From assembly GCA_017417465.1 (NCBI GenBank), contig JAFPZD010000141.1:1-64000 (forward strand): a stretch of DNA of 64,000 nucleotides. Reading direction: 5' to 3'. A program made the translations under genes and the position numbers. This document shows positions 10,408 through 57,306 of the stretch, piece by piece (positions within the stretch are counted from its first letter, which is position 1; every line of letters starts with the position of its first letter). The notes under the pieces were generated by a model. That model had not been told where the DNA came from. It saw only the letters and a list, made by a program, of their open reading frames with translations, and ran no database searches. This stretch comes from Prevotella sp. (GTDB taxonomy: Bacteria > Bacteroidota > Bacteroidia > Bacteroidales > Bacteroidaceae).

Positions 10408-10448
10408 TTTGTTTTTATGATTAGGTTACTAAACTATCTAAAGTTGAG

Positions 10449-10537
10449 TAGTAAGAAGTAGTAAAAAGGAGTTAGAAGTAGTTAGAAGTCGATAGACTTG
10501 ACGCTACGATAAACCTGAGAGGGCTATACTAATGACT
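10449..10537 (-). repeat. 89-bp inverted repeat, copy A
   Basis: It matches 13046-13134 in reverse orientation with about four mismatches by eye. It consists of a purine-rich AGTAGTAAGAAG-type array and a unique 50-nt core containing GTCGATAGACTTGACGCTA. The two copies flank pfkA-nhaD. A shorter related stretch occurs at about 15573-15605. The rest of the 10408-10575 spacer holds further TACTACT/AGTAGTA arrays able to fold on each other. Confidence 0.95.
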
Positions 10538-10575
10538 ACTTTTTACTACATTTTACTACTTCTTACTACTTCTAA

Positions 10576-11553
10576 TCAGATGCTCAGCTCATCGAGCACC
10601 TTGATAAGCTTCTTGTCGAACGGCTTGTCGGTACGGATGCACTCTGAGAAGGGCACGTAGACCACCTCGTTGTTTCGCACGCCGACCATGACGTTGCGCT
10701 GTCCCTGCTTGATGGCTTCGATAGCTCCCACACCTGTGCGGCTGGCCAGAATACGGTCATGAGCCGAAGGTGTTCCGCCACGCTGCAGGTGTCCGAGAAT
10801 ACTGACACGCACATCGAACCCGGGGAATTCCTTTTTCACACGGTCGGCATAGAAAAGGGCACCACACTTAGGACTCTCAGAGACAATGACGATACACGAT
10901 TTCTTCGACTTGCGGATGCCACGAGCCATAAAGTGTGCCAGCTGGTCCTCGTCGGTCATTTCCTCGGGAATGATGGCAGCCTCAGCACCGGCAGCAATGG
11001 CTGAGTTCTGAGCCAGGAAGCCGGCATCGCGGCCCATGACCTCGATAAAGAAGATGCGCTCGTGGGAGTTAGCCGTGTCGCGGATGCGGTCGACGCACTC
11101 CATGATAGTGTTCATCGTGGTGTCGTAGCCAATAGTAGAGTCAGTGCCATAAAGGTCGTTGTCGATGGTGCCCGGCAGGCCAATGCAGGGGAAGTCGAAC
11201 TCCATGCCGAAGTTACGTGCGCCGGTCAGCGAGCCGTTGCCGCCAATGACCACCAGTGCGTCGATCTCTTCCTTCTGACATGTCTCGTAGGCCTTCTGCA
11301 TGCCCTCCGGTGTCATAAACTCCTTCGAGCGGGCCGTCTTTAGGATGGTGCCGCCACGGTTGATGATACCGCTGACATTCTCAGTGGTGAATGCCATCAC
11401 CTCGCCTTTGATCAGGCCGTCGTAGCCACGATAGATACCCTTGATGTTAAAGCCGTTGTAAATGCCGGCACGGGTGACGGCACGGATGGCGGCGTTCATT
11501 CCCGGCGCGTCGCCTCCTGAGGTGAGCACGCCAATAGTTTTTACCTTCGACAT
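10576..11553 (-). CDS. pfkA: ATP-dependent 6-phosphofructokinase
   Basis: It phosphorylates fructose 6-phosphate to the 1,6-bisphosphate with ATP, the committed glycolytic step. The 325-aa size fits bacterial Pfk[13 protein letters not shown] is the N-terminal phosphate loop. Donor-site residues are ATP-type: GGNGS (Gly, not Asp, at the deciding site) and PGTIDND (Gly, not Lys). MGRDAGFLA follows. I chose the start at 11553 because upstream codons translate the end of nhaD in another frame. The start is only 7 nt after the nhaD stop, so the two are probably cotranscribed. The genome therefore carries both ATP- and PPi-type enzymes. Confidence 0.96.
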
Positions 11554-11560
11554 AGTACTT

Positions 11561-12931: not shown

Positions 12932-12939
12932 TGGTGATG

Positions 12940-13045
12940 AGTTAGGAGGGAGGAGTTAGGAGTTAGGAGGGAGGAGTTAGGAGTTAGGAGTTCTTGCGTC
13001 CCTTTGGTAGCAAGCGAGCAGAGCTCGAACGAGGAGGATTTAGAA
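12940..13045. repeat. GTTAGGAG spacer array plus 30-bp dispersed motif
   Basis: Positions 12945-12990 are iterations of GTTAGGAG/GGAGGAG. Positions 12990-13019 are a 30-bp sequence (core TTGCGTCCCTTTGGTAGCAA) that recurs exactly, inverted, at 15630-15659 and with one mismatch over 27 bp at 25587-25613. No gene is present. Confidence 0.9.
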
Positions 13046-13134
13046 GTCATTAGTATAGTTCTCTCAGGTGTATCATAGCGTCAAGTCTATCGACTTCTAA
13101 CTACTTCTAACTCCTTTTTACTACTTCTTACTAC
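13046..13134 (+). repeat. 89-bp inverted repeat, copy B
   Basis: Inverted partner of 10449-10537, including the unique core and the TACTACTTC array. The array continues to about 13200 and enters the end of the skp gene. Confidence 0.95.
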
Positions 13135-13170
13135 TTTTAAAAACTACTTCTTACTCCTTTTTACTACTTC

Positions 13171-13797
13171 TTACTCCTTTTTACTACTTTTACTACTCAC
13201 CTTTGCCGGGGCTTCGGCCTTTGCACCGTCCTTCTTGTAGCGCTTATTCAGCCCGTTGATGACGTCCTGCGTGATGTCATACTTCTGGTCAGCGAAGAGC
13301 ACGGCAGCCTTGTTCACGATCATGTCGTACTTCTTGTCGGCATTATAGACGGTGAGGAAGTTATCAAGACTGTCCTGAAGGGCTTTCAGGAACTTGGCCT
13401 GCTCACCGGCAAGCTCGTTCTCCAAGCGGGCCTGCAGAGCCGTCAGGTTGTTCTGCTCGCGCTGAAGGGCGGCCTGTGCATTCTCAAACTGCTCGCGACT
13501 GGTGAACCCATTGTTCTGAACCTTCTGCTGGAAGTTGGCGTAGCTCGACTCAAACTCCTTGCCCTTGCGGGTCAGGGTGTTCGTCAGGTTGGCACGCTTT
13601 TTCTCAAGCGAGTCGTTCATCAGCTTGGCATACTCATACTGCGAGGTCAGCGAGTCAATCTCGACAAAAGCGATACGCATGCCTGCAGGCTCGTCACCGG
13701 CGGGCGAGGCATCCATTTTGGGACTCTGGTTGTTGCACGAAGCCATCAGTGCGCCCACGGCAGCTACTGACAGTACACGGAAAACGTTCTTTTTCAT
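13171..13797 (-). CDS. skp: OmpH/Skp family periplasmic chaperone, lipoprotein-like signal
   Basis: A 208-aa exported protein. The signal peptide at 1-21 ends in MASC, which could act as a lipobox. The body has the OmpH/Skp plan: IAFVEIDSLTSQY strand, long coiled-coil-like helices rich in Gln/Asn/Glu (about 60-140), then DNFLTVYNADKKYDMIVN. Skp-like proteins hold unfolded outer-membrane proteins in the periplasm. The final residues SSKSSKKE and the TAA stop are encoded by the flanking AGTAGTAAAAAGG repeat array, so the native C-terminus was probably replaced or extended. It lies downstream of the small membrane protein at 13836. Confidence 0.9.
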   Translation of the reverse strand: MKKNVFRVLSVAAVGALMASCNNQSPKMDASPAGDEPAGMRIAFVEIDSLTSQYEYAKLMNDSLEKKRANLTNTLTRKGKEFESSYANFQQKVQNNGFTSREQFENAQAALQREQNNLTALQARLENELAGEQAKFLKALQDSLDNFLTVYNADKKYDMIVNKAAVLFADQKYDITQDVINGLNKRYKKDGAKAEAPAKVSSKSSKKE

Positions 13798-13821
13798 TTC
13801 TTGTTGGTTTGACTATATTTT

Positions 13822-13853
13822 AGCTTTTTACTTTTTTACCTTTTTACTCTTTC
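13822..13853 (-). repeat. GTAAAAAG-type spacer array containing a stop codon
   Basis: On the minus strand this reads as iterations of GTAAAAAG/GGTAAAAAA. It supplies the last codons (RVKR) and TAA stop of the 13836 gene and most of the spacer before skp. Confidence 0.85.
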
Positions 13854-14051
13854 TTTAACTGCCAACGGACTGCGCTGCCGCATCTCACGGTCCTGGTCAA
13901 TCACGCAGTGAATGCCACGCTCGCGCATCGCCTCAGAGTCGTGAATATGCTGAGAAGAGAAGCATCCATTCTTGCGAAAAATGACTTTTACGCACAAAAA
14001 TGCTACCCCAATAGCAATTATTAACGCACCAATGACAATTATCTCAATCAT
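13836..14051 (-). CDS. Small conserved membrane protein
   Basis: A 71-aa protein with one N-terminal membrane helix (MIEIIVIGALIIAIGVAFLCVKVIF), then a soluble part with Cys and His residues (NGCFSSQHIHDSEAMRERGIHC). I recognise it as a conserved Bacteroidales protein type without a known function. I chose the start at 14051 because the longer in-frame start at 14084 would place the -7 box inside the gene. The C-terminal RVKR and stop lie in a repeat array. Confidence 0.8.
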   Translation of the reverse strand: MIEIIVIGALIIAIGVAFLCVKVIFRKNGCFSSQHIHDSEAMRERGIHCVIDQDREMRQRSPLAVKERVKR

Positions 14052-14057
14052 TTTTTG

Positions 14058-14066
14058 TACTTTTGC
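14058..14066 (+). promoter_or_regulatory. -7 box for pepD
   Basis: TACTTTTGC fits TAnnTTTGC, 54 nt upstream of the pepD ATG. It is only 5 bp from the opposing -7 box at 14071-14079, so the two divergent promoters overlap and may compete for polymerase. Confidence 0.7.
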
Positions 14067-14070
14067 GGGT

Positions 14071-14079
14071 GCAAAGTTA
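14071..14079 (-). promoter_or_regulatory. -7 box for the 14051 gene
   Basis: The minus strand reads TAACTTTGC, a match to TAnnTTTGC, 20 nt upstream of the ATG at 14051, implying a very short leader. Confidence 0.65.
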
Positions 14080-14119
14080 ATCATTAAAACTTAAACAACC
14101 TATAAACCAAACATTAAAA

Positions 14120-15571: not shown

Positions 15572-15575
15572 CTAT

Positions 15576-15699: not shown

Positions 15700-15862
15700 G
15701 AGCGAATGCGAAACTTGTATATAATTATTGTACGCAAACATATTTTATATAATAGTGGACGTCCATCCGCGGCATGGACATCACCTACAGATGGCTATCG
15801 GCTGGCAAGTCAGGTGCTTCAGTCCTGAAACCACGTCAACACCATTTGGTTAAACAACAAGC

Positions 15863-18760
15863 ATGAAGTCGAATCAAGAGTATATTGAAATCAAGGGCGC
15901 GCGCGTCAACAACCTGAAGAACGTTGACGTGCGCCTGCCCCGCAACAAGTTCATCGTCATTGCCGGCGTCAGCGGCAGCGGCAAGTCGTCGCTGGCCTTC
16001 GACACGCTCTATGCCGAAGGACAACGGCGTTACGTAGAGAGTCTGTCGAGCTATGCACGACAATTCCTCGGACGCATGAACAAGCCCGACTGCGACTTCA
16101 TCCGTGGCATCCCCCCAGCCATTGCCATCGAACAAAAAGTTATTGCACGAAACCCACGAAGCACCGTAGGCACTTCAACCGAGATTTATGAGTACCTACG
16201 GCTGCTCTTCGCCCGTGTGGGTCACACCTTCTCGCCCATCAGCGGTCAGGAGGTGAAGAAGCACTCCACCGAAGACGTGGTCCAGAAGATGCTGGAGTTC
16301 TCCAGCGGCACGAAGTTCGTCGTACTGGCTCCACTCGTTGTCCCTGATGGCAGAACGGTGGAACAACAGCTGAAAGCCAGCATCCTACAGGGGTACAGCA
16401 GGATATTGGCCCCCGATGCCTCCCCTTCTGCCCCCGAGGGGGCTACGATAGTTTCTTCCCCATCATTTGAGGGAGCCACTATAGTTCGTATCGAGGACTA
16501 TCTTCATGAAATCGAGAACAATTCTCAATTCACAAATCTCAATTCTCAAATCTTTATTGTCATCGACCGCTTGTCGGCCTCCAACGACAAAGAGACCATT
16601 GCCCGTCTTGTCGACTCTGCCGAGACGGCCTTCTACGAGGGACAGGGCGAGCTGCGCCTGATGGTCCTCCCCTCAGGCCTGCACTACGACTTCTCGACCC
16701 GCTTCGAGGCCGACGGCATCACGTTCGAGGAGCCTACCGACCAGCTCTTCTCGTTCAACTCACCCGCCGGCGCCTGCCCTGAGTGCCAAGGCTTCGGGCG
16801 CATCATCGGCATCGACGAGCACCTCGTCATTCCCGATCCTTCGCTCTCAGTCTACGATGGCTGCGTCGTCTGCTGGCACGGCGAGAAGATGAGCGAGTGG
16901 AAAAACTGGTTCATCCAGCATGCTGCCAAGGACGACTTCCCCATCTTCGAGCCTTATTACAACCTGACACAACAGCAGCGAGACTGGCTGTGGCACGGAC
17001 TGCCCTCCGACCGACACCTGCCGACCCGCGAAAAGCCCTGCATCGACGCCTTCTTCGAGATGGTGAAGGAGAACCAATACAAGATTCAGTACCGTGTCAT
17101 GATGAGCCGCTATCGTGGAAAGACCACCTGCCCCGTCTGCCATGGCACGCGCCTGAAGCCAGAGGCTGACTACGTGAAAATCGATGGGCACAGCATCACC
17201 GACCTTGTACAGATGCCCGTCGTCAGGCTAAAGGAATGGTTCGACCGACTGAAGCTCACCGACCATGAGGCCGACATTGCGCGTCGGTTGCTCACCGAGA
17301 TCACCTCACGCCTGCAGTTCCTCCTCGACGTTGGGCTGGGCTACCTCACCCTCAACCGTCTCTCCAACACGCTCAGTGGCGGTGAGAGCCAGCGCATCAA
17401 TCTCTGTACATCGCTCGGCAGCTCGCTCGTCGGCTCCCTCTACATCCTCGACGAGCCCAGCATCGGACTGCACACGCGCGACACCGACCGCCTCATCAAG
17501 GTGCTCAAGGAGCTACAGGCACTGGGCAACACCGTCGTCGTCGTCGAGCACGACGAGGAAATCATTCGCGCCGCTGACTACCTCATCGATGTGGGACCCG
17601 ATGCAGGACGCCTCGGAGGCGAAATCGTCTACAGTGGTGAGCTGCCCGACGACGCCCAACTGCCTGCGCTCAGCACCAAGTTCCCCCACAGCTACACCCT
17701 GCGCTACCTCCTCGGACTCGATGCCATCGCAATGCCATCGGGGGCCTCCCTGCGCCGTCCCTGGAACCAGCACATCGACATCCGCTCTGCGCGCATGAAC
17801 AACCTGCGAGGCATCACCGTACAGATACCACTCAACGTCATGACCGTCGTCACGGGCGTGTCAGGCAGCGGTAAGTCGAGTCTTATCAGGGGCATCCTCT
17901 ACCCTGCCCTTAAGCGCCATCTCGGCGAGCCCTACGACCTGCCTGGCGAATACAGCGGGCTCGGGGGCGACATCGACGCCATACAGCATATCGAGTTCGT
18001 CGACCAGAACCCCATCGGCAAGTCCACGCGCTCGAACCCTGCCACCTACGTCAAAGCCTACGATGCCATTCGCGACCTCTTTGCAGAGCAGCCACTGGCC
18101 AAGCAGATGGGCTTCACGTCGCAGTATTTCTCGTTCAATGCCGACGGCGGGCGTTGCGACGAGTGCAAGGGCGCAGGCACCATCACCGTCGAGATGCAGT
18201 TCATGGCCGACCTCGTCCTCGAGTGTGAGGCTTGCCATGGCCACCGCTTCAAGCAGGACATCCTCGATGTGCGCTACAATGGCAAGAACATCGACGACGT
18301 GCTCAACATGACCATCAGCGAGGCCATCGAGTTCTTTAGCAGCGAGCCCACCATCGTCCGACGCCTCAAGCCCCTCCAGGATGTGGGCCTCGGTTACATC
18401 AAGCTCGGCCAGAACTCATCGTCGCTCTCAGGCGGTGAGAACCAGCGTGTAAAGCTTGCCTACTTCATAGGCCTTGAACGCCAGGAGCCAACCATGTTCA
18501 TCTTCGATGAACCAACCACGGGCCTCCATTTCCACGACATCAGCCGACTGCTCACATCACTCAATGCGCTCATCGACCGTGGGCACACCATCGTCATCAT
18601 CGAGCACAACATGGACGTCATACGCCAGGCCGACTACGTCATCGACCTCGGTCCCGACGGTGGCGACCGTGGCGGCAACCTTGTCGTCGCCGGCACACCA
18701 GAGGTTGTGGCCGCATGCCCCGACAGCATCACTGGCCAATACCTGAAGAAAAAACTCTGA
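15863..18760 (+). CDS. uvrA: Excinuclease ABC subunit A
   Basis: UvrA is the ATPase that finds bulky DNA lesions and loads UvrB in nucleotide excision repair. Both ABC modules are visible in 965 aa: Walker A GVSGSGKSSL twice, signatures LSGGESQRI and LSGGENQRV, Walker B LYILDEPSIGLH and FIFDEPTTGLHF. Zinc sites show CPECQGFG with CPVCHGTRL, and CDECKGAG with CEACHGHRF. The protein is somewhat longer than usual because the region between the first Walker A and the first zinc site carries two extra stretches: a duplicated EGATIV peptide (about 185-205) and NNSQFTNLNSQI, encoded by a 7-bp array at 16520. Reading frame is kept. It is probably functional because the insertions lie in a variable region. 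Confidence 0.96.
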   Translation: MKSNQEYIEIKGARVNNLKNVDVRLPRNKFIVIAGVSGSGKSSLAFDTLYAEGQRRYVESLSSYARQFLGRMNKPDCDFIRGIPPAIAIEQKVIARNPRSTVGTSTEIYEYLRLLFARVGHTFSPISGQEVKKHSTEDVVQKMLEFSSGTKFVVLAPLVVPDGRTVEQQLKASILQGYSRILAPDASPSAPEGATIVSSPSFEGATIVRIEDYLHEIENNSQFTNLNSQIFIVIDRLSASNDKETIARLVDSAETAFYEGQGELRLMVLPSGLHYDFSTRFEADGITFEEPTDQLFSFNSPAGACPECQGFGRIIGIDEHLVIPDPSLSVYDGCVVCWHGEKMSEWKNWFIQHAAKDDFPIFEPYYNLTQQQRDWLWHGLPSDRHLPTREKPCIDAFFEMVKENQYKIQYRVMMSRYRGKTTCPVCHGTRLKPEADYVKIDGHSITDLVQMPVVRLKEWFDRLKLTDHEADIARRLLTEITSRLQFLLDVGLGYLTLNRLSNTLSGGESQRINLCTSLGSSLVGSLYILDEPSIGLHTRDTDRLIKVLKELQALGNTVVVVEHDEEIIRAADYLIDVGPDAGRLGGEIVYSGELPDDAQLPALSTKFPHSYTLRYLLGLDAIAMPSGASLRRPWNQHIDIRSARMNNLRGITVQIPLNVMTVVTGVSGSGKSSLIRGILYPALKRHLGEPYDLPGEYSGLGGDIDAIQHIEFVDQNPIGKSTRSNPATYVKAYDAIRDLFAEQPLAKQMGFTSQYFSFNADGGRCDECKGAGTITVEMQFMADLVLECEACHGHRFKQDILDVRYNGKNIDDVLNMTISEAIEFFSSEPTIVRRLKPLQDVGLGYIKLGQNSSSLSGGENQRVKLAYFIGLERQEPTMFIFDEPTTGLHFHDISRLLTSLNALIDRGHTIVIIEHNMDVIRQADYVIDLGPDGGDRGGNLVVAGTPEVVAACPDSITGQYLKKKL
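16520..16554 (+). repeat. 7-bp AATTCNC array x5 inside uvrA
   Basis: Five 7-bp units (AATTCTC, AATTCAC, AAATCTC, AATTCTC, AAATCTT). The same unit forms the 14-copy array in the U32 peptidase gene at 55720. About 40-110 nt upstream in uvrA are two diverged direct repeats (GAGGGGGCTACGATAGTTTC-like). Confidence 0.9.
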
Positions 18761-21310: not shown

Positions 21311-21350
21311 GAAGTAGTAAGAAGTAGTAAGAAGTAGTAAGAAGTAGTGA
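21311..21350 (+). repeat. 10-bp GAAGTAGTAA array x4 at the sulfatase start
   Basis: Four units of GAAGTAGTAA; the last is GAAGTAGTGA, and its GTG (21347) is the only plausible start codon of the sulfatase. The same unit occurs in the 10449 and 15584 repeats. Confidence 0.95.
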
Positions 21351-22855
21351 AACATACATTATTACTGGCCTCACTGTCAACACTGTCTGTCGCAGCACAG
21401 CAGCGGCCGAACGTGATACTGATCGTCGCCGACGACCTGGGCTATGGCGATGTGAGTGCCTACGGGCAGACCACAGTACAGACGCCAGCCATCGACCGTC
21501 TGGCACACGGTGGCGTATGTTTCACTGATGGCCACGCCACCTCGGCAACCTCTACCCCATCGCGCTACGGTCTCTTCACAGGCATGTACCCTTGGAAGAA
21601 GGAGGGCACGCACATCCTGCCAGGCGATGCGCCACTGCTCATTTCCCCTGAGCAGTTCACCATGCCCAGGATGTTCCAGCAGGCGGGCTACCACACGGCC
21701 GCCATCGGAAAATGGCACCTCGGAATGGGCTACGGCAAGATAGACTGGAACCATCGCATCAAGCCTGCCGCCAATGCCATCGGCTTCGACTACACCTGCG
21801 TCATCGCTGCCACGGTGGATCGCGTGCCAACAGTGTATGTGGAGGACGGACTGGTGGAAGGCCTGGATCCCGACGACCCCATCGAGGTCAGCTATGAGCA
21901 GAACTTCGAGGGCGAACCCACGGCACTCACAAACCCTGAGATGGTGAAGATGCAGTGGAGCCACGGCCACAACAACAGCGTCGTCAACGGCATTCCTCGC
22001 ATAGGCTTTATGAAAGGCGGCCGCGCGGCTCGTTGGAAGGACGACGAGATGGCCGAGTACTTGTTGAATAAGGTGTTCCGCTACATTGACCAGCGCACAG
22101 CGAGCGAGCAGCCTTTCTTCCTCTATTACGGTCTGCACCAGCCACATGTGCCGCGCACGCCCGACACGCGCTTTGCTGGCCGTACGCCCCTGGGGCCTCG
22201 TGGCGACGTCATTGCCGAAATGGACTGGTGCGTGGGGCAGCTGCTACAGAAGCTGGAAGAGAATGGGCTGATGGAGCACACGCTTATCATCTTCTCGAGC
22301 GACAACGGCCCCGTCCTTGACGACGGCTACGTGGATGGCGCACGTGAATCGGCCCCACTACACGACCCACGAGGCGGACTTCGCGGCGGCAAATACAGTC
22401 TCTACGACGCGGGCACGCGCGTTCCTTTCTTTATCTATTGGCAAGGGCACATTCACCCCGTCGTGAACCATGAGCTGGTGTCACAGCAGGACCTCGTGGC
22501 CTCACTCGGCAAGCTCATCGGACAACAAGTGCCCGACTCTTTAGACTCGCGCGAGATGCTCGACACCTTCTTAGGCAAGCGCAAAAGCGGACGACACGAT
22601 ATGGTGGTAGAAGCCCAAGGGCGACTGGCCTTCCGCAGCGGACGCTACGCCCTCATCCCTCCCTATAAAGGCCCACAGCGCAACGAAACCGATAATGAAC
22701 TGGGCAATGTCGACAACTGGACGCTCTACGACCTTCAGGCCGACCCTTCACAAGCCACCGACATCACCGCCACACATCCACGCCTGCTACGCAAACTCAT
22801 TCGACAGTTCAAGCAGGCCACGAAAATTTGCGATTTTGCGGTCTATAAACATTAA
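21347..22855 (+). CDS. Secreted sulfatase, serine-type active site
   Basis: A 502-aa type I sulfatase that hydrolyses sulfate esters, probably on host or plant-derived glycans, in the periplasm or at the surface. The signal peptide is MKHTLLLASLSTLSVAAQ. NVILIVADDLGYGD gives the first metal ligands. The formylglycine motif is STPSR, with Ser in place of Cys, so activation would need a radical-SAM sulfatase maturase (anSME). GKWHLG and IIFSSDNGP are also typical. The start codon is GTG at 21347, inside a repeat array, so the native 5' end may have been altered. The specific substrate cannot be read from sequence. The kinase downstream shares its promoter sequence. Confidence 0.93.
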   Translation: MKHTLLLASLSTLSVAAQQRPNVILIVADDLGYGDVSAYGQTTVQTPAIDRLAHGGVCFTDGHATSATSTPSRYGLFTGMYPWKKEGTHILPGDAPLLISPEQFTMPRMFQQAGYHTAAIGKWHLGMGYGKIDWNHRIKPAANAIGFDYTCVIAATVDRVPTVYVEDGLVEGLDPDDPIEVSYEQNFEGEPTALTNPEMVKMQWSHGHNNSVVNGIPRIGFMKGGRAARWKDDEMAEYLLNKVFRYIDQRTASEQPFFLYYGLHQPHVPRTPDTRFAGRTPLGPRGDVIAEMDWCVGQLLQKLEENGLMEHTLIIFSSDNGPVLDDGYVDGARESAPLHDPRGGLRGGKYSLYDAGTRVPFFIYWQGHIHPVVNHELVSQQDLVASLGKLIGQQVPDSLDSREMLDTFLGKRKSGRHDMVVEAQGRLAFRSGRYALIPPYKGPQRNETDNELGNVDNWTLYDLQADPSQATDITATHPRLLRKLIRQFKQATKICDFAVYKH

Positions 22856-25163: not shown

Positions 25164-25295
25164 TTTGCTGACCTTCGTCAGCAGATTTGCTGACCTTCGT
25201 CAGCAGATTTGCCGACCTTCGTCAGCAGATTTGCTGACCTTCGTCAGCAGATTTGCCGACCTTCGGCAGCAGATTTGCCGACCTTCGTCAGCAAC
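25164..25295. repeat. 22-bp tandem hairpin array x6
   Basis: Six contiguous 22-bp units, each carrying GCTGAC-CTTC-GTCAGC or GCCGAC variants separated by AGATTT. Every unit can form a small stem-loop. There are no spacers, so it is not CRISPR. The 62-aa ORF across it is repeat translation. Confidence 0.95.
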
Positions 25296-28611: not shown

Positions 28612-28639
28612 TTGGTTATGAGGCACTGAAGGAGGAAGG

Positions 28640-28849
28640 AGGAGTTAGGAGTTAGGAGTTAGGAGTTTTCGGGGGTGCGAGGGTACGTGGGTACGGAGGT
28701 ACGAGGATAGAGTTTTCGGGGGTACGTGGGTACGGAGGTACGAGGATAGACCTTGCGCAGCCTCCGTGTCCTCCGTGACTCTGTGTGAGATACTCTTAAC
28801 TCCTAACTCCTAACTCTTAACTCTTAACTCCTAACTCCTAACTCTTAAC
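28640..28849. repeat. Repeat-filled spacer (GTTAGGAG arrays and 39-bp-period direct repeat)
   Basis: GTTAGGAG iterations (28643-28668) and their inverse, CTCCTAAC/CTCTTAAC (28798-28849), flank two identical 31-bp units at 28681-28711 and 28720-28750 (core TACGTGGGTACGGAGGTACG). No gene is visible in 28612-28944. Confidence 0.9.
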
Positions 28850-28861
28850 ATTCTCCCACGC

Positions 28862-35246: not shown

Positions 35247-35289
35247 TGCTTTGTTGTGGTAAGGGCGCCGAGCGGAATGCCACTTTGCG

Positions 35290-35355
35290 CCGAGAAGTCT
35301 GCTACTCTTCTCCGAGAAGTCTGCCACTCTTCTCCGAGAGGACTCTTACTTAGCT
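35290..35355 (+). repeat. 22-bp direct repeat x3 before uxuA
   Basis: Three 22-bp units beginning CCGAGA (CCGAGAAGTCTGCTACTCTT twice with one change, then a diverged copy). Each contains AGAAG/CTTCT self-complementarity. Apart from this and the hairpin, the 35170-35540 spacer holds only the uxuA promoter. Confidence 0.9.
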
Positions 35356-39616: not shown

Positions 39617-39663
39617 GGAGGAAGATGGAGATGAAAGATGAAAGATGAAAAATGATAGATGAG
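39617..39663 (-). repeat. 7-bp GATGAAA spacer array
   Basis: About six 7-bp units of GATGAAA/GATGAGA type fill the whole spacer between the CaCA stop and the queF start. Confidence 0.85.
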
Positions 39664-40659: not shown

Positions 40660-40897
40660 GGAGTTAGGAGTTAGGAGGTGTGAAGTTGAGGAGGTGAGAA
40701 GTTGTGGAGGTGTGGAGGTGAGGAGGTGTGGAGGTGAGGAGGTGTGGAGGTGAGGAGTTGTGGAGGTGTGGAGGTGTGGAGTTGAGGAGTTGTGGAGGTA
40801 AAAGTAGAATAGACCTATTCCCCAATCATTGCGCTCGAAAGGAGTGGAGGGCAAACTCCTAACTCCTAATTCCTAACTCCTAACTCTTCCAACTCTC
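40660..40897 (-). repeat. GAGGTGTG / CTCCTAAC spacer array (about 240 bp)
   Basis: Two blocks: 40661-40800 of 8-bp GTGGAGGT/GAGGTGAG units, and 40858-40897 of CTCCTAAC/CTCTCCTAAC units. The second block contains the TAG stop of the upstream hslR gene. Confidence 0.9.
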
Positions 40898-41317
40898 CTA
40901 ACTCTCCTCCTCGTCCCAGCTGTCGAAGTCAAAGCCCTCGAAGGCTGGTGTCGTGAAGGCATCAATCTGTCGACGGTCCTTTTTGGTGGGTCGCCCAGTG
41001 CCTCGTGCACGACCGGCAAAACCACCGATGCGGATCATCTCGAGCAGTTCGTACTGGTCAGGGGTGGTGACATTCTCGTAGATTTCGGGCAGCAGCTTGG
41101 CACCCACGCGCTGTTCAATGGTCTTGAGCACCTTGAAGGTGTAGGTCACTGGCGGTTTGCGTACACCCACCTCATCGCCCACCTTCACCATACGCGAGGG
41201 CTTGACGTTGACCCCGTTCACGGCGATGCGCCCGTTCTTACAGGCATCGGCAGCGATGGTGCGCGTCTTAAAGATGCGGGCAGCCCACAGCCACTTGTCT
41301 ATTCGTGCTTCACTCAT
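40898..41317 (-). CDS. hslR: S4-domain RNA-binding protein (Hsp15/HslR-like)
   Basis: 139 aa. The N-terminal S4 domain (about 3-65: ARIDKWLWAARIFKTRTIA, GRIAVNGVNVKPSRMVKVGD) resembles Hsp15, which binds stalled 50S subunits carrying a peptidyl-tRNA. A basic linker (GRPTKKDRRQI) and acidic tail (WDEEES) follow. The final EES and the stop are in the repeat array. It overlaps the pth gene by 8 nt, a functionally apt pairing with another peptidyl-tRNA quality-control factor. Confidence 0.92.
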   Translation of the reverse strand: MSEARIDKWLWAARIFKTRTIAADACKNGRIAVNGVNVKPSRMVKVGDEVGVRKPPVTYTFKVLKTIEQRVGAKLLPEIYENVTTPDQYELLEMIRIGGFAGRARGTGRPTKKDRRQIDAFTTPAFEGFDFDSWDEEES

Positions 41318-41924: not shown

Positions 41925-41990
41925 TAGCTGAAATCTGAATCTTGAATCTTAAACTTCAAAAATTCTCAATTTCTTAATGTCTCAATTTCA
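41925..41990 (-). repeat. Degenerate 7-bp spacer array (rplY to pth)
   Basis: Contains TGAATCT/TTGAATC units and TTCTCAATT stretches like those in uvrA and the U32 gene. It runs from the rplY stop nearly to the pth start. Confidence 0.75.
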
Positions 41991-45725: not shown

Positions 45726-46166
45726 ATGCAACAAACCATTTTAGCCATTGCCGGCAAGCCCGGCCTCTACAAACTCATCACGCGTGGTAAGAACAACCTC
45801 ATCGTCGAAGCCCTCGACAGCACGCATAAACGCATACCCGCATTCAGCACCGACCGCATCACCTCGCTGGCCGACATCGCCATGTTCACCGATACCGACG
45901 ACGTGCCCCTGATGGACGTGCTCGACAGCCTCAAGACCATTGAGGAGGGAAAGACTGCCTCACTCGACCCCAAGAAAGCCGATGGCGACGAACTGCGTGA
46001 ATTCTTCGCACGCGTGCTGCCCAACTACGACCGTGAGCGCGTACACACCAGCGACATCAAGAAGCTGCTGCAATGGTACAACATCCTCGTGGCTAACGGC
46101 ATCACCGACTTCAAAGAGGAGATGAAACCCACCGAAGGCGACAACATCGATGACAGAAAAGCGTGA
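45726..46166 (+). CDS. DUF5606 domain protein
   Basis: A 146-aa conserved Bacteroidetes protein. The N-terminal ILAIAGKPGLYKLITRGKNNLIVEAL and KRIPAFSTDRITSLADIAMF are the DUF5606 signature. The C-terminal half has acidic helices (VLPNYDRERVHTSDIKKLLQWYNIL). It is soluble and of unknown role; members often lie near coaE, as here. Its stop codon TGA is inside the first unit of an 8-bp repeat array that fills the whole gap to serS. Confidence 0.9.
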   Translation: MQQTILAIAGKPGLYKLITRGKNNLIVEALDSTHKRIPAFSTDRITSLADIAMFTDTDDVPLMDVLDSLKTIEEGKTASLDPKKADGDELREFFARVLPNYDRERVHTSDIKKLLQWYNILVANGITDFKEEMKPTEGDNIDDRKA

Positions 46167-46226
46167 AATCGCCAAATAGTCCAATCGTGGAATAGTGAAA
46201 TCGTGAAATAGTCAAATCGTCAAATA
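46163..46226 (+). repeat. 8-bp spacer array x8 between DUF5606 and serS
   Basis: Eight exact-length 8-bp units (GTGAAATC, GCCAAATA, GTCCAATC, GTGGAATA, GTGAAATC, GTGAAATA, GTCAAATC, GTCAAATA), alternating ...ATC and ...ATA. The TGA stop of the upstream gene is at 46164-46166; serS starts 5 nt after the array. Confidence 0.95.
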
Positions 46227-46231
46227 TCAAG

Positions 46232-47759: not shown

Positions 47760-48815
47760 ATGGCAAAAACTAAAAAACCGAATCTTTCAGCCAACAACGA
47801 TAAACAGGAAGAATCGTTACTCTTTGATGAAATTATCGCTTCGCTTCCGTCAGATGTAAGAAAAGTAGTTGATAAAGCTGGTATAAAGAGTTTGGACGAT
47901 GTGTTTTGTTCAATGCTTTTACATGGCGTGGACCCCTTAAAGATGAGCCGCCTCCCGATAGAAAAACTCGAGAGTGGCGACTTCAGCTTTAATGAGGTGA
48001 TGCTTGACGAGAAATCTATTGATGACCTCTTTGACGATGAAGAGGACTATGACGACGATGAAGACTATGACGACGATGAAGACTATGACGATGAAGAGGA
48101 CTATGACGAGGACGAGGAAGACGATGACGACCAAAAGGGATTCGATGATGAAAGCTACTTGTTAGGGTTAAAGTTTCCCAGGCAGAAGTTCATAGGCCCA
48201 TCTACAAAAGAGTTTCATATTCACATCAAGCTGAACAAGGCGCCAGTCAGCATCTGGCGCGAACTCGTCGTTCCATCCAACATTACTTTGGAGCTGTTGG
48301 CATACGTACTAATTGAAGCGATGGGCTGGGAACATGAACACATGTATCATTTCATCGGACAAGACAATGTATTCTATGTGAACGGCCATGAAATAAAAGA
48401 GTATGAAAACAACTTCATGGGGTTCCTATTTTCGGCACAGCGAAAGAACAGCGAAAAGACTTCACTCGAGATGGTCCTGCAACCGAAAGGCGAAAGGTTG
48501 GAGTTCGAGTACGACTTTGGCGATTCCTGGTCACACGAGCTGTGGGTAAAAGGCGAACGCAACTATGCCAAAGGAGAAGAACCTGTCATCAAGCTGCTGA
48601 AAGCACAAGGCGAGTGTCCTCCTGAAGACTGTGGGGGCGTATATGGATATGCTGAACTGCTTAGAATAAACAAAAAGCAACGAAAGTCTGCCGATGACAA
48701 GGAACGCCTGGAATGGTTCGACATCCCAAAGAATTACGATCCAGAGGACTGCGACCTGGAATGGCTACAAGACAACGTGGAGGCCCTGTGGATGAGGATT
48801 AAGAACGACCTCTGA
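47760..48815 (+). CDS. Plasmid pRiA4b ORF-3-like protein with acidic repeat
   Basis: 351 aa. The C-terminal half (about 160-340) has the pRiA4b ORF-3 (MM3350/IS1096 TnpR-like) fold motifs: FHIHIKLNKAPVSIWRELVVP, LIEAMGWEHEHMYHF, FEYDFGDSWSHEL, CPPEDCGGVYGY. Its function is unknown; the family is linked to mobile DNA by name only. A highly acidic Asp/Glu/Tyr repeat (DDDEDYDDDEDYD-like, about 91-122) lies before it. The codons are more A+T-rich than in neighbouring genes, hinting at later acquisition. It has its own promoter and stands alone between serS and the rplT operon. No terminal inverted repeats or transposase are visible. Confidence 0.85.
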   Translation: MAKTKKPNLSANNDKQEESLLFDEIIASLPSDVRKVVDKAGIKSLDDVFCSMLLHGVDPLKMSRLPIEKLESGDFSFNEVMLDEKSIDDLFDDEEDYDDDEDYDDDEDYDDEEDYDEDEEDDDDQKGFDDESYLLGLKFPRQKFIGPSTKEFHIHIKLNKAPVSIWRELVVPSNITLELLAYVLIEAMGWEHEHMYHFIGQDNVFYVNGHEIKEYENNFMGFLFSAQRKNSEKTSLEMVLQPKGERLEFEYDFGDSWSHELWVKGERNYAKGEEPVIKLLKAQGECPPEDCGGVYGYAELLRINKKQRKSADDKERLEWFDIPKNYDPEDCDLEWLQDNVEALWMRIKNDL

Positions 48816-50350: not shown

Positions 50351-50374
50351 TAACGCTTTTTTCGGAAATCGGCT

Positions 50375-52145: not shown

Positions 52146-52164
52146 GATGGCGGCTCCGAAGGAA

Positions 52165-53070: not shown

Positions 53071-53104
53071 ACTTAATGCTTATCTTTATGTCTTCTAAGA
53101 GCGT

Positions 53105-53113
53105 GCAAAGGTA
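53105..53113 (-). promoter_or_regulatory. -7 box for fabD
   Basis: The minus strand reads TACCTTTGC, 35 nt upstream of fabD. Confidence 0.7.
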
Positions 53114-53194
53114 CATCTTTTCAGTGGAAAACACGCCATCCCACACCGTTTTTTAATGTTTATTAGCGTAACCAACTTATCGAATAACAGCCGA

Positions 53195-53917
53195 TTAACG
53201 CGTCAGGAACCGTGTGCTGAGGTAGCGCTGAAATGCCTCTTTATAGAGGTCGCCTATCGGGAGGTAGGTGTCGGCATCCATGATGACGCGGTTCTTGTTC
53301 ACCTCTTTTATTTTGGTAAGGTTGATGATATAGGAGCGGTGGATGCGCATGAAATAGGAGGGGAGGCGCTCCTCCATCTTCTTCATTGAAAGGAAGGTGA
53401 CGATGGGCTTAGGCTGGCTGTCGAGCCACACCTTCAGGTACTCGCTCATAGCCTCGACATAGCGAATATCGGGGATGTTCACATTGACAATGCGGTAGTC
53501 GGTCTTGAGGAAGAGCGTGTCCGTATCGGGGACGGGGACTTCGTCTGCCGGACGGGTCCCCTCTAACCTTTCTTGTAACCGCTGTGCGGCCCGCTGGAAC
53601 TCCTGCAGTCCGAAGGGCTTCAGCAGATAGTCGACGGCATTCACACGGAACCCCTCGACGGCATACTCAGAATAGGCGGTGGTGAAGACGACGAGGGGCG
53701 GCACGGCGAGCGACTTCACGAAGTCCATGCCGCTAAGGTCGGGCATGTTGATGTCGCAGAAGATGGCATCGACGGTGTCGTTTTCCAGGAACGTGCGGGC
53801 CTCGACGGCACTCTGGCACTGGGCGGCAAGTTCGAGAAACGGCACTTTGCCGATATAGGCCACAAGCTGCTTCAGCGCTAACGGCTCATCATCGATGGCA
53901 AGACAACGGATTTTCAT
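53195..53917 (-). CDS. LytTR-family response regulator
   Basis: A 240-aa two-component response regulator. The receiver domain (about 1-120) has the acidic pocket IDDEP, phospho-acceptor Asp in FCDINMPDLSGMDF, and the switch Thr/Ser and Lys in VVFTTAY and LLKPFGL. The LytTR DNA-binding domain follows (about 140-240: RYVEAMSEYLKVWL, FMRIHRSYIINLTKI). It is cognate to the histidine kinase encoded upstream. Target genes are unknown; envelope or carbohydrate functions are common for this type. Confidence 0.95.
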   Translation of the reverse strand: MKIRCLAIDDEPLALKQLVAYIGKVPFLELAAQCQSAVEARTFLENDTVDAIFCDINMPDLSGMDFVKSLAVPPLVVFTTAYSEYAVEGFRVNAVDYLLKPFGLQEFQRAAQRLQERLEGTRPADEVPVPDTDTLFLKTDYRIVNVNIPDIRYVEAMSEYLKVWLDSQPKPIVTFLSMKKMEERLPSYFMRIHRSYIINLTKIKEVNKNRVIMDADTYLPIGDLYKEAFQRYLSTRFLTR

Positions 53918-53975
53918 TTACAATTTGACAATTTACTATTTACGATTTATTGACGATTTGACGATTTACGATTTA
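53918..53975 (-). repeat. TTTACGA/TTTGACGA spacer array (kinase to regulator)
   Basis: Degenerate units of 7, 8 and 11 bp starting TTT on the plus strand fill the gap. The kinase gene's last codons and TAA stop fall inside the array, which then runs to the regulator's ATG. Confidence 0.85.
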
Positions 53976-55180
53976 TTCATGATTTCACGGTTTCCGAGGG
54001 GTATGACGAGTTCCACCTGATAGACGTCGGCGGCATCGTCGATGGTGAGCGTGTAGTTGCTGCCGTAGAGCAGGTCAAGGCGCTTGCGGACATTGGCGAG
54101 CCCTACGCCACCATGCTCGTCGATGGATTGGTCGGCCTTCGAGTTACAGCACTTAAAGCGCAGCGTGTCGCCTTTCAGGCTGACGGTCATGTCGACGAAC
54201 GATTCGTGCTGATAGCTGATGCCGTGCTTAAAAGCATTCTCGATGAAGGTGATAAGGATCAGTGGCGGAATGTGGCTGTCGGATGTTTCCTGCGGCAGGG
54301 CGAGGCTTATCCTCACTTTCTCCGTATAGCGCAGCTGCATCAGTGCGACATAGTGGCGGATGAATTCGAGCTCACGGGCAAGTGGTACGCTCTGCTTGTT
54401 GCCCTCGTAGAGCACGTACCGCATCATTTTCGACAATTCCACGATGGTGCCCTTTGCCTGTTCAGGGTCGATGTCGACGAGGGCGTGGATGTTGTTGAGC
54501 GTGTTCATGAAGAAGTGGGGATTGATCTGATAGCGCAGATACTCCATCTGCTGCTCCAGGTTCTCACGCTCCAGCTCAGCTAGCCGCTTGCGATCGTCGC
54601 GACTACGGAAGTAGCCCTTGATGCCGAGGTTGGCACCGAACATCAGTATCACCACCAGGACGGAGAGAATATCGCGCTCACCAACGATGGGAGGCGGTGA
54701 GTCGGCCCGATGCATCCTGCGGAGCGGACGCTCGTCGGGACGCTCGTCAGGGCGTGGTGACGCCTCGTCAGGCATGGGCGGACGCTGCTCATCGAATGCC
54801 ATTGGCTCGTCGCCAAAGGGCGGCTGATGGAGGTCGGCCCGCTCCATGTGCGGTCCGTGGCCTCTGCGTTCGGGCTTGTTTGAACACTTGTAGACGGTGA
54901 ACACCGCCAGCAACGTGACGACGGCCGCACAATACAGCATGCGCTTGTGCCGGTGAACCAGTAGCGGAGCCAGAAGGAAATTATGAACGAGGAACAACAG
55001 CAGATAAACGGCAAAGTGACGCCACACGACGAACACCTCGTTCCAGTTGAACGCGACGTTCGCATCGCTGACGGTTCGCACATAAAGGCTCAGCACCGGC
55101 GCTGCAAAGAGTAAGCCCCATGCTGCCACGTAGACCAGGTTTTCCTGCCGTGATTGCTTCATCCAGAATCTGTTTGTCAT
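53966..55180 (-). CDS. LytS-type sensor histidine kinase
   Basis: 404 aa. Four hydrophobic segments (about 16-36, 53-72, 79-95, 168-185), then a coiled coil and a His_kinase domain: phospho-His in YQINPHFFMNTLNNIHAL and N-box LITFIENAFKHGI, with a G-box near GGVGLANVRKRL. Between segments 3 and 4 is a long charged loop rich in Pro, Arg, Asp and Glu with repeated DERP, unusual for the family. I chose the start at 55180 (MTNRFWMKQSRQ) because the longer frame is leader. It pairs with the regulator at 53195; its signal is unknown. Confidence 0.92.
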   Translation of the reverse strand: MTNRFWMKQSRQENLVYVAAWGLLFAAPVLSLYVRTVSDANVAFNWNEVFVVWRHFAVYLLLFLVHNFLLAPLLVHRHKRMLYCAAVVTLLAVFTVYKCSNKPERRGHGPHMERADLHQPPFGDEPMAFDEQRPPMPDEASPRPDERPDERPLRRMHRADSPPPIVGERDILSVLVVILMFGANLGIKGYFRSRDDRKRLAELERENLEQQMEYLRYQINPHFFMNTLNNIHALVDIDPEQAKGTIVELSKMMRYVLYEGNKQSVPLARELEFIRHYVALMQLRYTEKVRISLALPQETSDSHIPPLILITFIENAFKHGISYQHESFVDMTVSLKGDTLRFKCCNSKADQSIDEHGGVGLANVRKRLDLLYGSNYTLTIDDAADVYQVELVIPLGNREIMNKS

Positions 55181-55410
55181 ATTCAATAACGTGAGAAAAC
55201 CGTGTTTATTGTCGCCGTCGACGTCAAGCCGACAGCCTCTGAGCATGTCATTCGCATCATCGAGATCGTTGTAAACTGGCACAAAATTACGACACCTTCG
55301 CCACAACAGGAAAAAAGTTCAGCGAAATGTGCGATTCTTTCAGTGAAAAAACTGCCGAAGGCAATAATCAGGGCGATGCATACGTTCTAAGTATAGAAAG
55401 AGAACAAGAT

Positions 55411-57306
55411 ATGAGAAAGCTGGAACTGCTGGCACCCGCCAAAGACCTGGCATGCGGCATGGCGGCCATCGACCATGGCGCCGATGCCGTCTACATCGGT
55501 GCGCAACGTTTCGGAGCACGTGCGGCGGCAGGCAATAGCACCGCCGACATTGCCCGTCTGTGCGACTATGCCCACCAGTTTGGAGCCCGTGTCTACGTCA
55601 CGGTGAACACCATCATCTACGACGACGAGCTGGCCGACACCCAGCGCCTGCTGGAAGAACTGGCAGAGGCACAGGCCGACGCCATTCTGGTGCAGGACAT
55701 GGGATTAGTTTCTATTTACAATTCACAATTCTCAATTCACAATTCACAATTCTCAATTCACAATTCACAATTCCCAATTCTCAATTCACAATTCTCAATT
55801 CATAATTCTCAATTCACCCTCCACGCTTCCACCCAGACCGACAACCGCACGGCCGACAAGGTGCGATGGCTGTGGCAGCAAGGCTTCAGCCGTGTGGTGC
55901 TGGCTCGCGAGCTGAGCATCGATGAGATTGCCGAAATCCACCGTCAGGTGCCTGATGTGGAGCTTGAGGTCTTCGTCCACGGTGCGCTGTGCGTCAGCTA
56001 CAGCGGGCTGTGCTACGCCTCGCAGCAGTGCTTTGGGCGTTCGGCCAACCGCGGTGCGTGTGCACAGTTCTGCCGAATGAAGTTCGATCTTATCGATGCC
56101 GACGGTCAGGTCATAGAGCACAGCCGCCACCTGCTGTCACTGAAAGACCTGAACCAAAGTGGCAATCTGGAGCGCCTCGCCGAGGCTGGTGCCACGTCGT
56201 TCAAGATTGAGGGTCGCCTGAAGGATATCGGCTATGTGAAGAATGTCACCGCCGCCTACAGCGAGCTGCTGAACCAGCTCGTCGCCCGCCATCCCGACCG
56301 CTACGAGCGGGCCTCGCTGGGCCATTGTCGCTACACCTTCCATCCCGACCTGCGCAAGACGTTCAACCGCGGCTATACCACCTACTTTGCCAATGGCCGA
56401 CAGGCTGACATTGCCTCGTTCGACACGCCAAAGGCGATGGGCGAGTTTGTGGGCACGGTGAAGGAGCTGCGCGGCCCATCGTTCAATGTGGCAGGCACGG
56501 CAAGCTTCGCCAACGGCGATGGCCTCTGCTTCCTGAATGCCGACCGTGAACTGGAGGGATTCCGTGTCAACCGCGTCGAGGGCAACCGCCTGTTCCCGCA
56601 AAAGATGCCGCATAACCTGCACCCCGGCCTGCGCCTCTATCGCAACAACGACCAGCAACTGGAGCGCCTGCTCGCCAAGCCGAGCGCCGAGCGCAAGATA
56701 CCCGTCGCGATGAGCCTCCGTGCCACCGACGACGGCTTTGCCCTCACCATGGGCGGTGTCACGGTGACCATGCCGGCAGAGCATCGGCAGGCCGAGAAGC
56801 CTCAGCGCGAGAACATCGTGCGCCAACTGACGAAGCTGGGCGGCACGCCCTTCGAATGTGCGACGGTCGACATGGCTGCCGACTTCGACTACTTCATACC
56901 CAGCAGCCATCTCAGTGAGCTGCGGCGCAGGGCAACGGAAGCCCTGCTGAAAAGCCTGTGCCACCGCGCTGACACATCGTCAGCACCTCAGCAGCACGAC
57001 GGTGACGCGGCACCCCCACTCTATCGCGTACCTTATTTATATAATGTGAGCAACCATCTGGCACGACAGTTCTACGAGCGTCAAGGCGTGGAGGTCGGTG
57101 ACGCTTTCGAGCTGCGACAACCTGCCGACGACGCGCTACTGATGCAGTGCCGTCACTGCCTGCGCTACAGCCTGGGCTATTGCGTGCGGCGTGGCGGACA
57201 GCGTCCCCCCTGGCGCGAACCACTCTCATTGGTGCTTGGCGACGGGCGGCGATTCCGCCTTGCGTTCGACTGCAAGAACTGCCAGATGAACATCTTTGAA
57301 AGTTAA
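55411..57306 (+). CDS. U32 family peptidase with heptapeptide-repeat insertion
   Basis: A 631-aa protein of the U32 (collagenase-like/YegQ) family; E. coli relatives act in tRNA or small-molecule modification, so peptidase activity is doubtful. LLAPAKDLACGMAAIDHGADAVYIG and the ELEVFVHGALCVSYSGLCYASQ region with Cys residues (SCYxxQ, CAQFCR) are typical. After VQDMGL, where homologues go directly to LHASTQ, there is an insertion of NSQFSIH-type heptapeptides (about residues 104-136) from a 7-bp array. I chose ATG 55411 because upstream in-frame codons lack family character. It is divergent from the kinase gene; no promoter box stands out in 55181-55410. Confidence 0.9.
   Translation: MRKLELLAPAKDLACGMAAIDHGADAVYIGAQRFGARAAAGNSTADIARLCDYAHQFGARVYVTVNTIIYDDELADTQRLLEELAEAQADAILVQDMGLVSIYNSQFSIHNSQFSIHNSQFPILNSQFSIHNSQFTLHASTQTDNRTADKVRWLWQQGFSRVVLARELSIDEIAEIHRQVPDVELEVFVHGALCVSYSGLCYASQQCFGRSANRGACAQFCRMKFDLIDADGQVIEHSRHLLSLKDLNQSGNLERLAEAGATSFKIEGRLKDIGYVKNVTAAYSELLNQLVARHPDRYERASLGHCRYTFHPDLRKTFNRGYTTYFANGRQADIASFDTPKAMGEFVGTVKELRGPSFNVAGTASFANGDGLCFLNADRELEGFRVNRVEGNRLFPQKMPHNLHPGLRLYRNNDQQLERLLAKPSAERKIPVAMSLRATDDGFALTMGGVTVTMPAEHRQAEKPQRENIVRQLTKLGGTPFECATVDMAADFDYFIPSSHLSELRRRATEALLKSLCHRADTSSAPQQHDGDAAPPLYRVPYLYNVSNHLARQFYERQGVEVGDAFELRQPADDALLMQCRHCLRYSLGYCVRRGGQRPPWREPLSLVLGDGRRFRLAFDCKNCQMNIFES
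55720..55817 (+). repeat. 7-bp AATTCNC array x14 inside the U32 peptidase gene
   Basis: Fourteen contiguous 7-bp units (AATTCAC, AATTCTC, with one AATTCCC and one AATTCAT). Every three units encode seven residues. Fourteen units are in frame with the rest of the gene as it stands; gain or loss of one or two would shift the frame. Confidence 0.97.

Follow-up and report, generated by a model that had tools for sequence, protein, structure and literature searches.

What builds the short, degenerate tandem arrays that occupy gene spacers and run over stop codons in the rumen-type bacterium Prevotella sp. GCA_017417465.1? We addressed this question starting from the first 64,000 nucleotides of contig JAFPZD010000141.1 (hereafter the window), in which a first-pass annotation had described spacers made of 7–10 bp repeats and had proposed a shared process that builds arrays at gene ends. 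Heptamer repeats have been noted for years without an explanation of why the unit is seven, how it spreads and why it sits at gene ends. We find that the arrays occur far above chance, begin in excess at stop codons, are filtered on their strand by stop content and draw on genome-specific pools of units. Copy number, presence and unit vary between sister species, some units match the gene's own end, and the arrays of one class are arms that flank the core of dispersed, inverted elements. The arrays are probably degenerate heptamer-type minisatellites, made and remade by a fast genome-wide process in which they are seeded, selected and copied.

The window represents bases 1–64,000 of contig 5 of a draft genome (4.42 Mb, 278 contigs, 90.8% complete). 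Arrays were detected with Tandem Repeats Finder and in the raw sequence. The sample of this genome covered 61 stretches (769 kb): the window, 22 stretches chosen for a 10-mer array match on their contig, and 38 taken on a contig-number grid; the window and the 38 grid-picked contig starts (382 kb) served as a less biased subset. Relatives were represented by 138 loci (L numbers; genomes carry G numbers) in the shuffle test of intergenic arrays. The named relatives matching the window's phosphofructokinase are rumen Prevotella or Prevotellaceae metagenome-assembled genomes and a few Prevotella and Xylanibacter isolates, which places the source organism in the rumen Prevotella group. Their ten best-matching loci are 74–80% identical to the window at the DNA level, and best protein identities reach 69% (Na/Ca exchanger), at most 75% (peptidase U32) and 96% (part of phosphofructokinase).

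Nine of the ten spacer arrays listed by the first-pass annotation were clear by both criteria, and the tenth, at 41925–41990, was weak. The array that closes the annotated span, ending at 55817, is real but lies in the open reading frame (ORF) of peptidase U32 rather than in a spacer. Units differ from site to site as claimed, except that the GGAGTTA family recurs at 12939, 28640 and 40660 and the AGTAGTAAGA family at 10447, 13093 and 21311; several window arrays form inverted pairs. In total, the source genome yielded 359 merged arrays of period 6–44, most often of period 7 (80), then 10 (52) and 8 (47), and period 7 was also commonest in relatives (129 of 427). Intergenic arrays of period 6–11 numbered 154 in the 769 kb against 0–4 in ten dinucleotide shuffles, and 113 in the 138 relatives' loci against 1–6, which rules out pure chance as their source. 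Period-7 arrays lie mostly outside genes (68/80 in the source genome, 90/129 in relatives), as do short tandemly repeated repetitive (STRR) and TAACTGA-type sequences, which are 7-bp tandem repeats of mainly intergenic location. No single word dominates, however, as it does in those types: the 215 and 217 arrays of period 6–11 in the source genome and relatives comprise 102 and 135 distinct canonical units.

Since loci were chosen by gene neighbourhood, the densities that follow are rough. Arrays of period 7, 8, 10 or 11 number 76 in the less biased 382 kb (19.9 per 100 kb), compared with 9.2 per 100 kb in 80 named rumen loci (55 of which carry arrays) and 14.1 in 29 exchanger loci; the 31.8 per 100 kb at 29 U32 loci is biased by the array inside the U32 gene itself. 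Twenty loci from other genera of the order gave 5.3 per 100 kb, with 11 of the 20 arrays coming from one genome of another family (G466, whose 15-kb locus L254 has 11 arrays, all of period 7–8); the array habit thus extends beyond the genus. No such array was found in 50 kb of Escherichia coli K-12.

All five stop codons named by the first-pass annotation lie inside arrays, but the claim that they fall in the first unit did not hold throughout: the final stop base stands 1.1 units in for the DUF5606 gene, 1.6 for the S4-domain gene, 2.1 for the 13836 gene, 2.7 for skp/OmpH and 4.6 for the histidine kinase. The array at 10535–10571 stops 4 nt short of the phosphofructokinase stop codon (10576, minus strand) and does not contain it. 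Across the sampled loci, we compared array positions with random placement in the same co-directional spacers (10-nt overlap allowed, 2000 simulations). The predicted excess within 10 nt of stops was borne out for period 7–8: 44 of 75 arrays in the source genome versus 31.6 expected, and 76 of 96 in relatives versus 65.5, with none of the 2000 simulations as high in either case; the less biased sample gave 25 of 39 versus 17.2 (p 0.001). The far ends of these arrays showed no excess at start codons (32/75 versus 31.9 in the source genome, 18/39 versus 17.3 in the less biased sample, 62/96 versus 65.3 in relatives). For period 9–11, the stop excess seen in the source genome (19/57 versus 8.9) was not clear in the less biased sample (4/13 versus 1.9, p 0.10) or in relatives (6/24 versus 4.9, p 0.33). 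Begin positions of the 244 arrays in co-directional spacers peak within the stop codon (22 at −2, 9 at −1, 6 at −3, 2 at 0), which suggests that the letters of the stop codon itself are in register with the repeat. Many solitary 7–8-mer arrays, a class distinct from the inverted elements, fill stop-to-start gaps. A shared, genome-wide process is supported, but it is not confined to gene ends: 99 of the 244 arrays begin more than 10 nt beyond the stop, and ORFs contain a further 61 of period 7, 8, 10 or 11.

The stop content of the two strands varies with this position. Arrays over a stop codon (n = 99) contain 12.3 stops per 100 nt in the sense and 4.1 in the antisense direction (78 versus 10 arrays). 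The difference is smaller for arrays beginning 0–10 nt past the stop (n = 46; 10.4 versus 5.9, 26 versus 11 arrays), disappears for those beginning more than 10 nt past it (n = 99; 7.8 versus 8.6, 31 versus 41 arrays), and is reversed in coding arrays (n = 61; 3.7 sense versus 7.2 antisense). We attribute this bias to selection on reading frames, so that machinery reading the stop codon is not needed.

Comparison of orthologous junctions, which the first-pass annotation had proposed as a check, revealed change in copy number, presence and unit, contrary to the refuting pattern that it had set out; it drew in addition on part of the alignments of twelve sister pairs. Among 809 comparisons with flanking proteins at least 90% identical, 643 had no array, 140 had one on one side and 26 on both sides (11.4 expected if independent); of these 26, 19 shared the period and 5 the identical unit. 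Two-sided arrays numbered 86 of 2423 at 80–90% flank identity (38.3 expected), 28 of 1495 at 70–80% (17.8) and 25 of 881 below 70% (18.9). In 193 comparisons of an array-bearing spacer with an array-free sister, 133 array-bearing spacers exceeded the sister's length by more than 7 nt, 35 came within 7 nt of it and 25 were shorter, with a median difference of +21. Fixed, inherited arrays are thereby ruled out for the relatives, and copy number varies between sister species as in variable-number, slippage-type minisatellites. Orthologous spacers in these genomes need not be homologous in sequence. Two different junctions, in L109 and L116, also hold a small hairpin-like element (TTCTTG...CAAGCGTACTAAAGAAACGATTA) inside heptamer arrays.

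Whether the unit is tied to locus or to strain had been posed as a further check; it follows mostly the strain, with a locus component. Arrays at least 500 bp apart had the identical heptamer in 6 of 73 pairs within a relative's locus against 148 of 8167 pairs between loci (label permutation p 0.003), and identical heptamers occurred in 152 of 3138 pairs within the source genome against 133 of 10,320 pairs joining it to a relative. The locus component is apparent from the 165 two-sided junction comparisons at all flank identities, 36 of which had the identical unit against 1.55% of random pairs. We counted three words in 14 whole genomes, scoring overlapping matches singly. The word pair AATTCWCAATTCWC has 275 matches in the source genome and 1–26 in the 13 relatives. 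CTCACCTCTCACCTCT has 63 in G033, 47 in G332, 45 in G293 and 27 in G178 against 0–18 in the other ten genomes, including 2 in the source genome and 0 in G154, and CAACTNTCAACTNTCAACT (CAACTNT) has 99 in G154, 32 in G178, 21 in G315 and 5 in the source genome. Reversed-word controls for the first two gave 0–4 per genome, except for 14 matches of the AATTCWCAATTCWC control in G050; this control is invalid for CAACTNTCAACTNTCAACT, whose arrays contain the reversed word too.

The peptidase U32 gene offers a fixed site at which these pools can be followed within a protein. In best-hit orthologs, the loop that holds the window's 55714–55817 array often carries other heptamers, on either strand, and the loop word agreed with the genome-wide counts in five of the six genomes compared (AATTCWC in the source genome, CAACTTT in G154, CTCACCT in G332 and G293, CAACTAT in G178). 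Mean lag-7 identity of the loop across 30 best-hit loci was 0.43 versus 0.288 (sd 0.011) in a codon-shuffle null, and it was at least 0.45 in 15 of the 30. As this sample is biased, its loci being best hits to the window protein, we also took 20 lower-ranked hits, in 19 of which a loop was found (L293, without a match to the loop pattern, was dropped); their mean was 0.302 versus 0.240 (sd 0.013), with clear arrays in 3 of 19. Repeat DNA, our findings suggest, is rewriting ordinary enzymes in their protein loops and at their gene ends. The loops of L183, L188, L192 and L297 bear other repeat types (GGGGACTGTCCCC pairs and a CCCCTCCC inverted repeat), so the site looks tolerant.

We propose that tandem duplication and replication slippage enlarge arrays from seeds that would often span a stop codon, where a presumably neutral first copy would leave the protein end intact. 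Purifying selection on coding ends would then set the borders, leaving arrays at non-coding ends, on stop-rich strands and in tolerant loops, so that they would look stop-directed through selection, with no machinery reading the stop codon. Units would in addition be copied between loci, partly as inverted-array hairpin elements that may be the moving form; local slippage cannot carry a unit from one locus to another. Such copying would make the vocabulary of a genome more uniform and allow one unit to replace another at a fixed, tolerant site.

Several points weigh against this reading. No event of copying between loci was observed, and unit pools could partly arise from genome-wide mutational bias. 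The within-locus excess of identical units is not clear for period 8 (1 of 6 pairs, p 0.24). In the sixth genome compared, G151, the U32 loop has an AATTCTC-like array while the whole genome has only 2 AATTCWCAATTCWC matches, so not every array is drawn from a large pool. The closest material belongs to other species, and turnover is accordingly demonstrated in relatives and not in the source species; the junction comparisons re-use species and are non-independent, and the seed matches described below may come in part from short remnants of a shared array. Finally, the gene calls come from a home-made caller, and contamination of the draft genome, which comprises 278 contigs, is estimated at 5.5%.

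A bolder account treats the arrays as a population of tiny mobile sequences, in which new loci would receive copies of a donor array by a not-yet-described, Y1-independent mechanism, at the cost of spacer or even protein-loop sequence, so that each genome would have its own vocabulary, exchanged as species diverge. We put this forward tentatively. In a genus with hundreds of sequenced species, measurable pools and site-by-site differences between sisters, the birth, copying and loss of arrays can be tested.

Purely local slippage would make each array from its own seed, units being alike because the seeds (A-rich ends, TAA/TGA) are alike. Consistent with this, and with the seeding step of our own proposal, sister-pair spacer alignments revealed copy-number steps of 7–8 nt or multiples (L053/L055, L109/L111) and array units that are repeated gene ends: in L104 versus L116 and L095 versus L042, the gene ends AAAAAGTAA and AGAAGTAA stand where the sisters carry AAAAAGTA and AGAAGTG arrays. 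More generally, the unit matched the spacer of an array-free sister at rank 0.95 or higher (up to 60 control spacers) in 24 of 54 arrays, with sense exceeding antisense matches 41 to 6. The genome-specific pools of AATTCWCAATTCWC and CTCACCTCTCACCTCT speak against slippage as the whole explanation, as does the AATTC-type unit, which stands in coding frames as well as in spacers (17 places in the source-genome sample); we therefore consider it unlikely.

Equally doubtful as a general account is REPIN-like mobile DNA, in which inverted-array hairpins are moved by a Y1 (RAYT/IS200-type) transposase and single arrays are their remains. The dispersed inverted elements described next count in favour of our own proposal as well. 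The 10-mer arrays at 10447–10571 and 13093–13197 are indeed the arms of two element copies that share a ~50-bp core and face opposite ways. A 71-base core query matched at least 37 places in the source genome (E ≤ 0.01; 40 of 49 candidates scored), of which at least 22 span query positions 19–58, whereas 149 other genomes, with at most 6 candidates scored in each, gave no full match and a single 26-base match at the arm–core border. The left end of the element lies near ATTCAACTTTCTCAAGTTGAG; when up to 3 mismatches are allowed, this pattern is present at 17 places and its reversed control at none. In several copies the ends ATTCAACTTTCTCAAGTTGAG and GAAGTTGAGCGAATGCGAAACTTGAAT form imperfect inverted repeats; in others, including those of the window, the ends are diverged or missing, and some copies keep the core with the left arm switched from 10-mers to 8-mers. 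Neighbouring arrays with related units are inverted in 38 cases and direct in 10, the purine-richer arm coming first in 32 of the 38. Folding was strong relative to shuffles at 10440–10580 (z −5.77) and 28620–28855 (z −5.84) and weaker in two other inverted-array spacers (z −2.14 for the second 10-mer element copy, and −1.83). Array-free sister sites were found as well; for instance, an inverted 9-mer array at one L077 junction is cleanly absent from the same L048 junction. The 10-mer element, to which this assignment is restricted, thus resembles a REPIN in being a dispersed, extragenic inverted pair with a hairpin.

The source genome has two Y1_Tnp genes (in L240 and L241). Across genomes, however, the domain was matched in only 15 of 27 (13 above cut-off), and the 12 without a match include G178 (99% complete), which has 32 and 27 matches to two array words, and G154 (78% complete), which has 99 CAACTNT matches. 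RAYT as the general mover is made unlikely by these genomes without a match, and Y1 transposases look unnecessary for arrays in general. Moreover, 38 inverted pairs among 215 and 217 arrays of period 6–11 leave most arrays with no detected inverted partner.

Three observations concern elements of this kind. Between the sister loci L050 (16623–16782) and L057 (16434–16593), a core between inverted arms stands in opposite orientation, which suggests inversion at the arms. In L240, the source genome's Y1_Tnp (IS200-like) gene at 1402–1857 lies between large arrays of ~75-bp units (771–2371) unlike the 10-mer element in sequence and is also flanked by an 8-mer array; it is possibly a transposase with its own repeat family. 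L119, L120 and L137 contain different dispersed elements with an end like ATTCAAGTTTCGCAAGTT, in common with the 10-mer element.

That the arrays are functional elements under selection, acting in translation coupling, mRNA stability or termination, appears improbable. Their density per kb of spacer is higher between co-directional genes (2.75, against 1.43 for convergent and 0.88 for divergent spacers, in the biased source-genome sample; 1.44, 0.60 and 0.46 in relatives), and some arrays fold strongly, but two of the four folds are weak, and at one and the same junction sister species may carry a different unit or lack the array. Least credible is a stop-codon-directed or RNA-templated builder synthesising repeats at gene ends: it would account for the sharp begin peak at the stop codon and the excess over random placement, but arrays are also present far into spacers and within genes, the strand bias seen close to stops is gone further down as selection would have it, and many units per genome would demand many templates.

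The view that no described system predicts such arrays was too strong. Most elements of the picture have precedents in published repeat systems. Heptamer repeats in scattered bacteria were reported in 1999 and 2007 (cited by PMC4692102), and a survey of prokaryote satellites mentions heptamer-derived families (PMC6749651); cyanobacterial 7-bp STRR (PMC2670836) and REPINs (PMC3116915) are further precedents. TAACTGA direct repeats, described in Beggiatoaceae, Cyanobacteria and five Bacteroidetes (MacGregor 2015, PMC4679880), are likewise mostly intergenic heptamers. In the main genome, 13 ORFs show an overlap between them and the upstream stop codon; the repeats take the stop-giving orientation in spacers and the reverse inside ORFs, and in Bacteroidetes have close relatives with shorter, repeat-free spacers and other heptamers alongside. 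They consist of one fixed word. Its sets hold 2–6 copies in the main genome, where most lie directly ahead of start codons, and up to 43 copies in some Bacteroidetes and Cyanobacteria; the Prevotella arrays differ in their many words, genome-specific pools, unit replacement, stop anchoring, degenerate copies and inverted-array elements. The GGGAATC and GGGGA(C/T)T heptamers of Xanthomonas and Nostoc (PMC4692102) are intergenic too, nearer the 5′ neighbouring ORF and mostly between aligned ORFs, with strand bias near stop codons that includes overlapping repeats, some inverted pairs, and length and sequence varying between relatives. They have one G-rich word per lineage, and most keep their flanking genes from one to the other of two Xanthomonas species, whereas presence and word turn over in Prevotella.

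Replacement at a fixed site has a parallel in the heptanucleotide repeats of the Nostoc tRNA-Leu intron P6b, repeatedly exchanged for another heptamer class, although there a single RNA site with a conserved fold and two classes only is involved (PMC4476775). BrickBuilt, a miniature inverted-repeat transposable element of Porphyromonas gingivalis with 19 occurrences, is a dispersed Bacteroidales element with a tandem array and short inverted ends (PMC4596501). Its 23-bp units form an array between leader and tail, unlike the 7–10-bp arrays that flank a core as inverted arms here, and its GAGACC-type ends do not resemble the ATTCAA..TTGAAT ends of the element here. Borg tandem repeats have perfect units, virtually all unique per genome and divisible by three in ORFs (PMC9879509); Prevotella units are short, degenerate and common to several loci. 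Among the top-ranked open-access papers (the best 1–15 of up to 2,055), titles and the opening lines of abstracts gave no description of such arrays in Prevotella, nor did any of genome-specific, inter-changing heptamer pools come up. The class of heptamer repeats is known, and its genome-specific variant appears new.

The arrays of the window are collected in the Table. Pfam supports an OmpH domain for the gene called skp and an S4 domain for that called hslR, both names being those of the first-pass annotation. A known RNA family as the identity of the arrays was rejected, as Rfam at gathering scores returned only three tRNAs in the window.

Table. Tandem arrays and element parts in the 64,000-nucleotide window
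Position	Strand	Feature
10447..10489		10-mer array of the AGTAGTAAGA type; in copy 1 of the inverted-array element, the purine-rich arm
10483..10534		~50-bp core of element copy 1; 92% identical (blastn) to the 13048-13099 core on the opposite strand
10535..10571		10-mer array, ACTACTTTTT type; pyrimidine-rich arm
12939..12992		7-mer array GAGTTAG with 21-bp higher-order unit; adjoins start of CitMHS-type transporter gene
13048..13099		Copy 2 of the element core, in the reverse orientation to copy 1
13093..13197		10-mer array forming an arm of copy 2; OmpH/skp stop codon inside, 27 bases (2.7 units) in
13818..13852		8-mer array TTTTTACT; stop of small gene 13836-14084 inside, 2.1 units in
16518..16553	+	7-mer array CAATTCT within UvrA-like ORF (15863-18760)
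21311..21348		10-mer array of 3.8 perfect GAAGTAGTAA copies; lies upstream of gene 21413-22855
28640..28667		7-mer array AGGAGTT; forms the left arm of an inverted pair
28673..28745		Degenerate 8-mer array GGGTACGA between the arms of the 28640/28792 inverted pair
28792..28849		7-mer array ACTCCTA; forms the right arm of the inverted pair
39629..39662		7-mer array AGATGAA; occupies most of the QueF-Na/Ca exchanger spacer
40660..40799		GGAGTTA array continuing into 16-mer (AGGAGGTGTGGAGGTG) array; adjoins Na/Ca exchanger start
40854..40908		AACTCCT array, inverted partner by sequence; S4-domain gene stop inside, 1.6 units in
41925..41990		Degenerate spacer of AATCTTG type; array weak, with 2.9 copies at 41932-41950 (score 31)
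46158..46230		8-mer array AAATCGTC/AAATAGTG, from DUF5606 stop to at most 2 nt from seryl-tRNA synthetase start
53916..53997		7-8-mer array ATTTACG/ATTTGACG; spans entire spacer and histidine-kinase gene stop
55714..55817	+	7-mer array AATTCAC/AATTCTC, 14.9 copies, in frame in peptidase U32 gene

Repeats of other kinds also occur in the window. Tandem arrays of 22 bp with internal dyad symmetry, recognised by eye, lie at 25164–25293 and 35278–35339; period 22 accounts for 33 of the 359 arrays of the source genome and 37 of the 427 in relatives. Their sequences vary, which might point to a second array system. A 9-mer array, GAAAACCCG, occupies 8837–8963 at the 3′ end of a radical SAM gene, which we take to be of the YgiQ type, and a Pfam Collagen match there falls just below cut-off. 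Nested repeats are found at the start of the window (56–309), and an acidic coding repeat, seen by eye, at 48032–48130 in the gene at 47760–48815.

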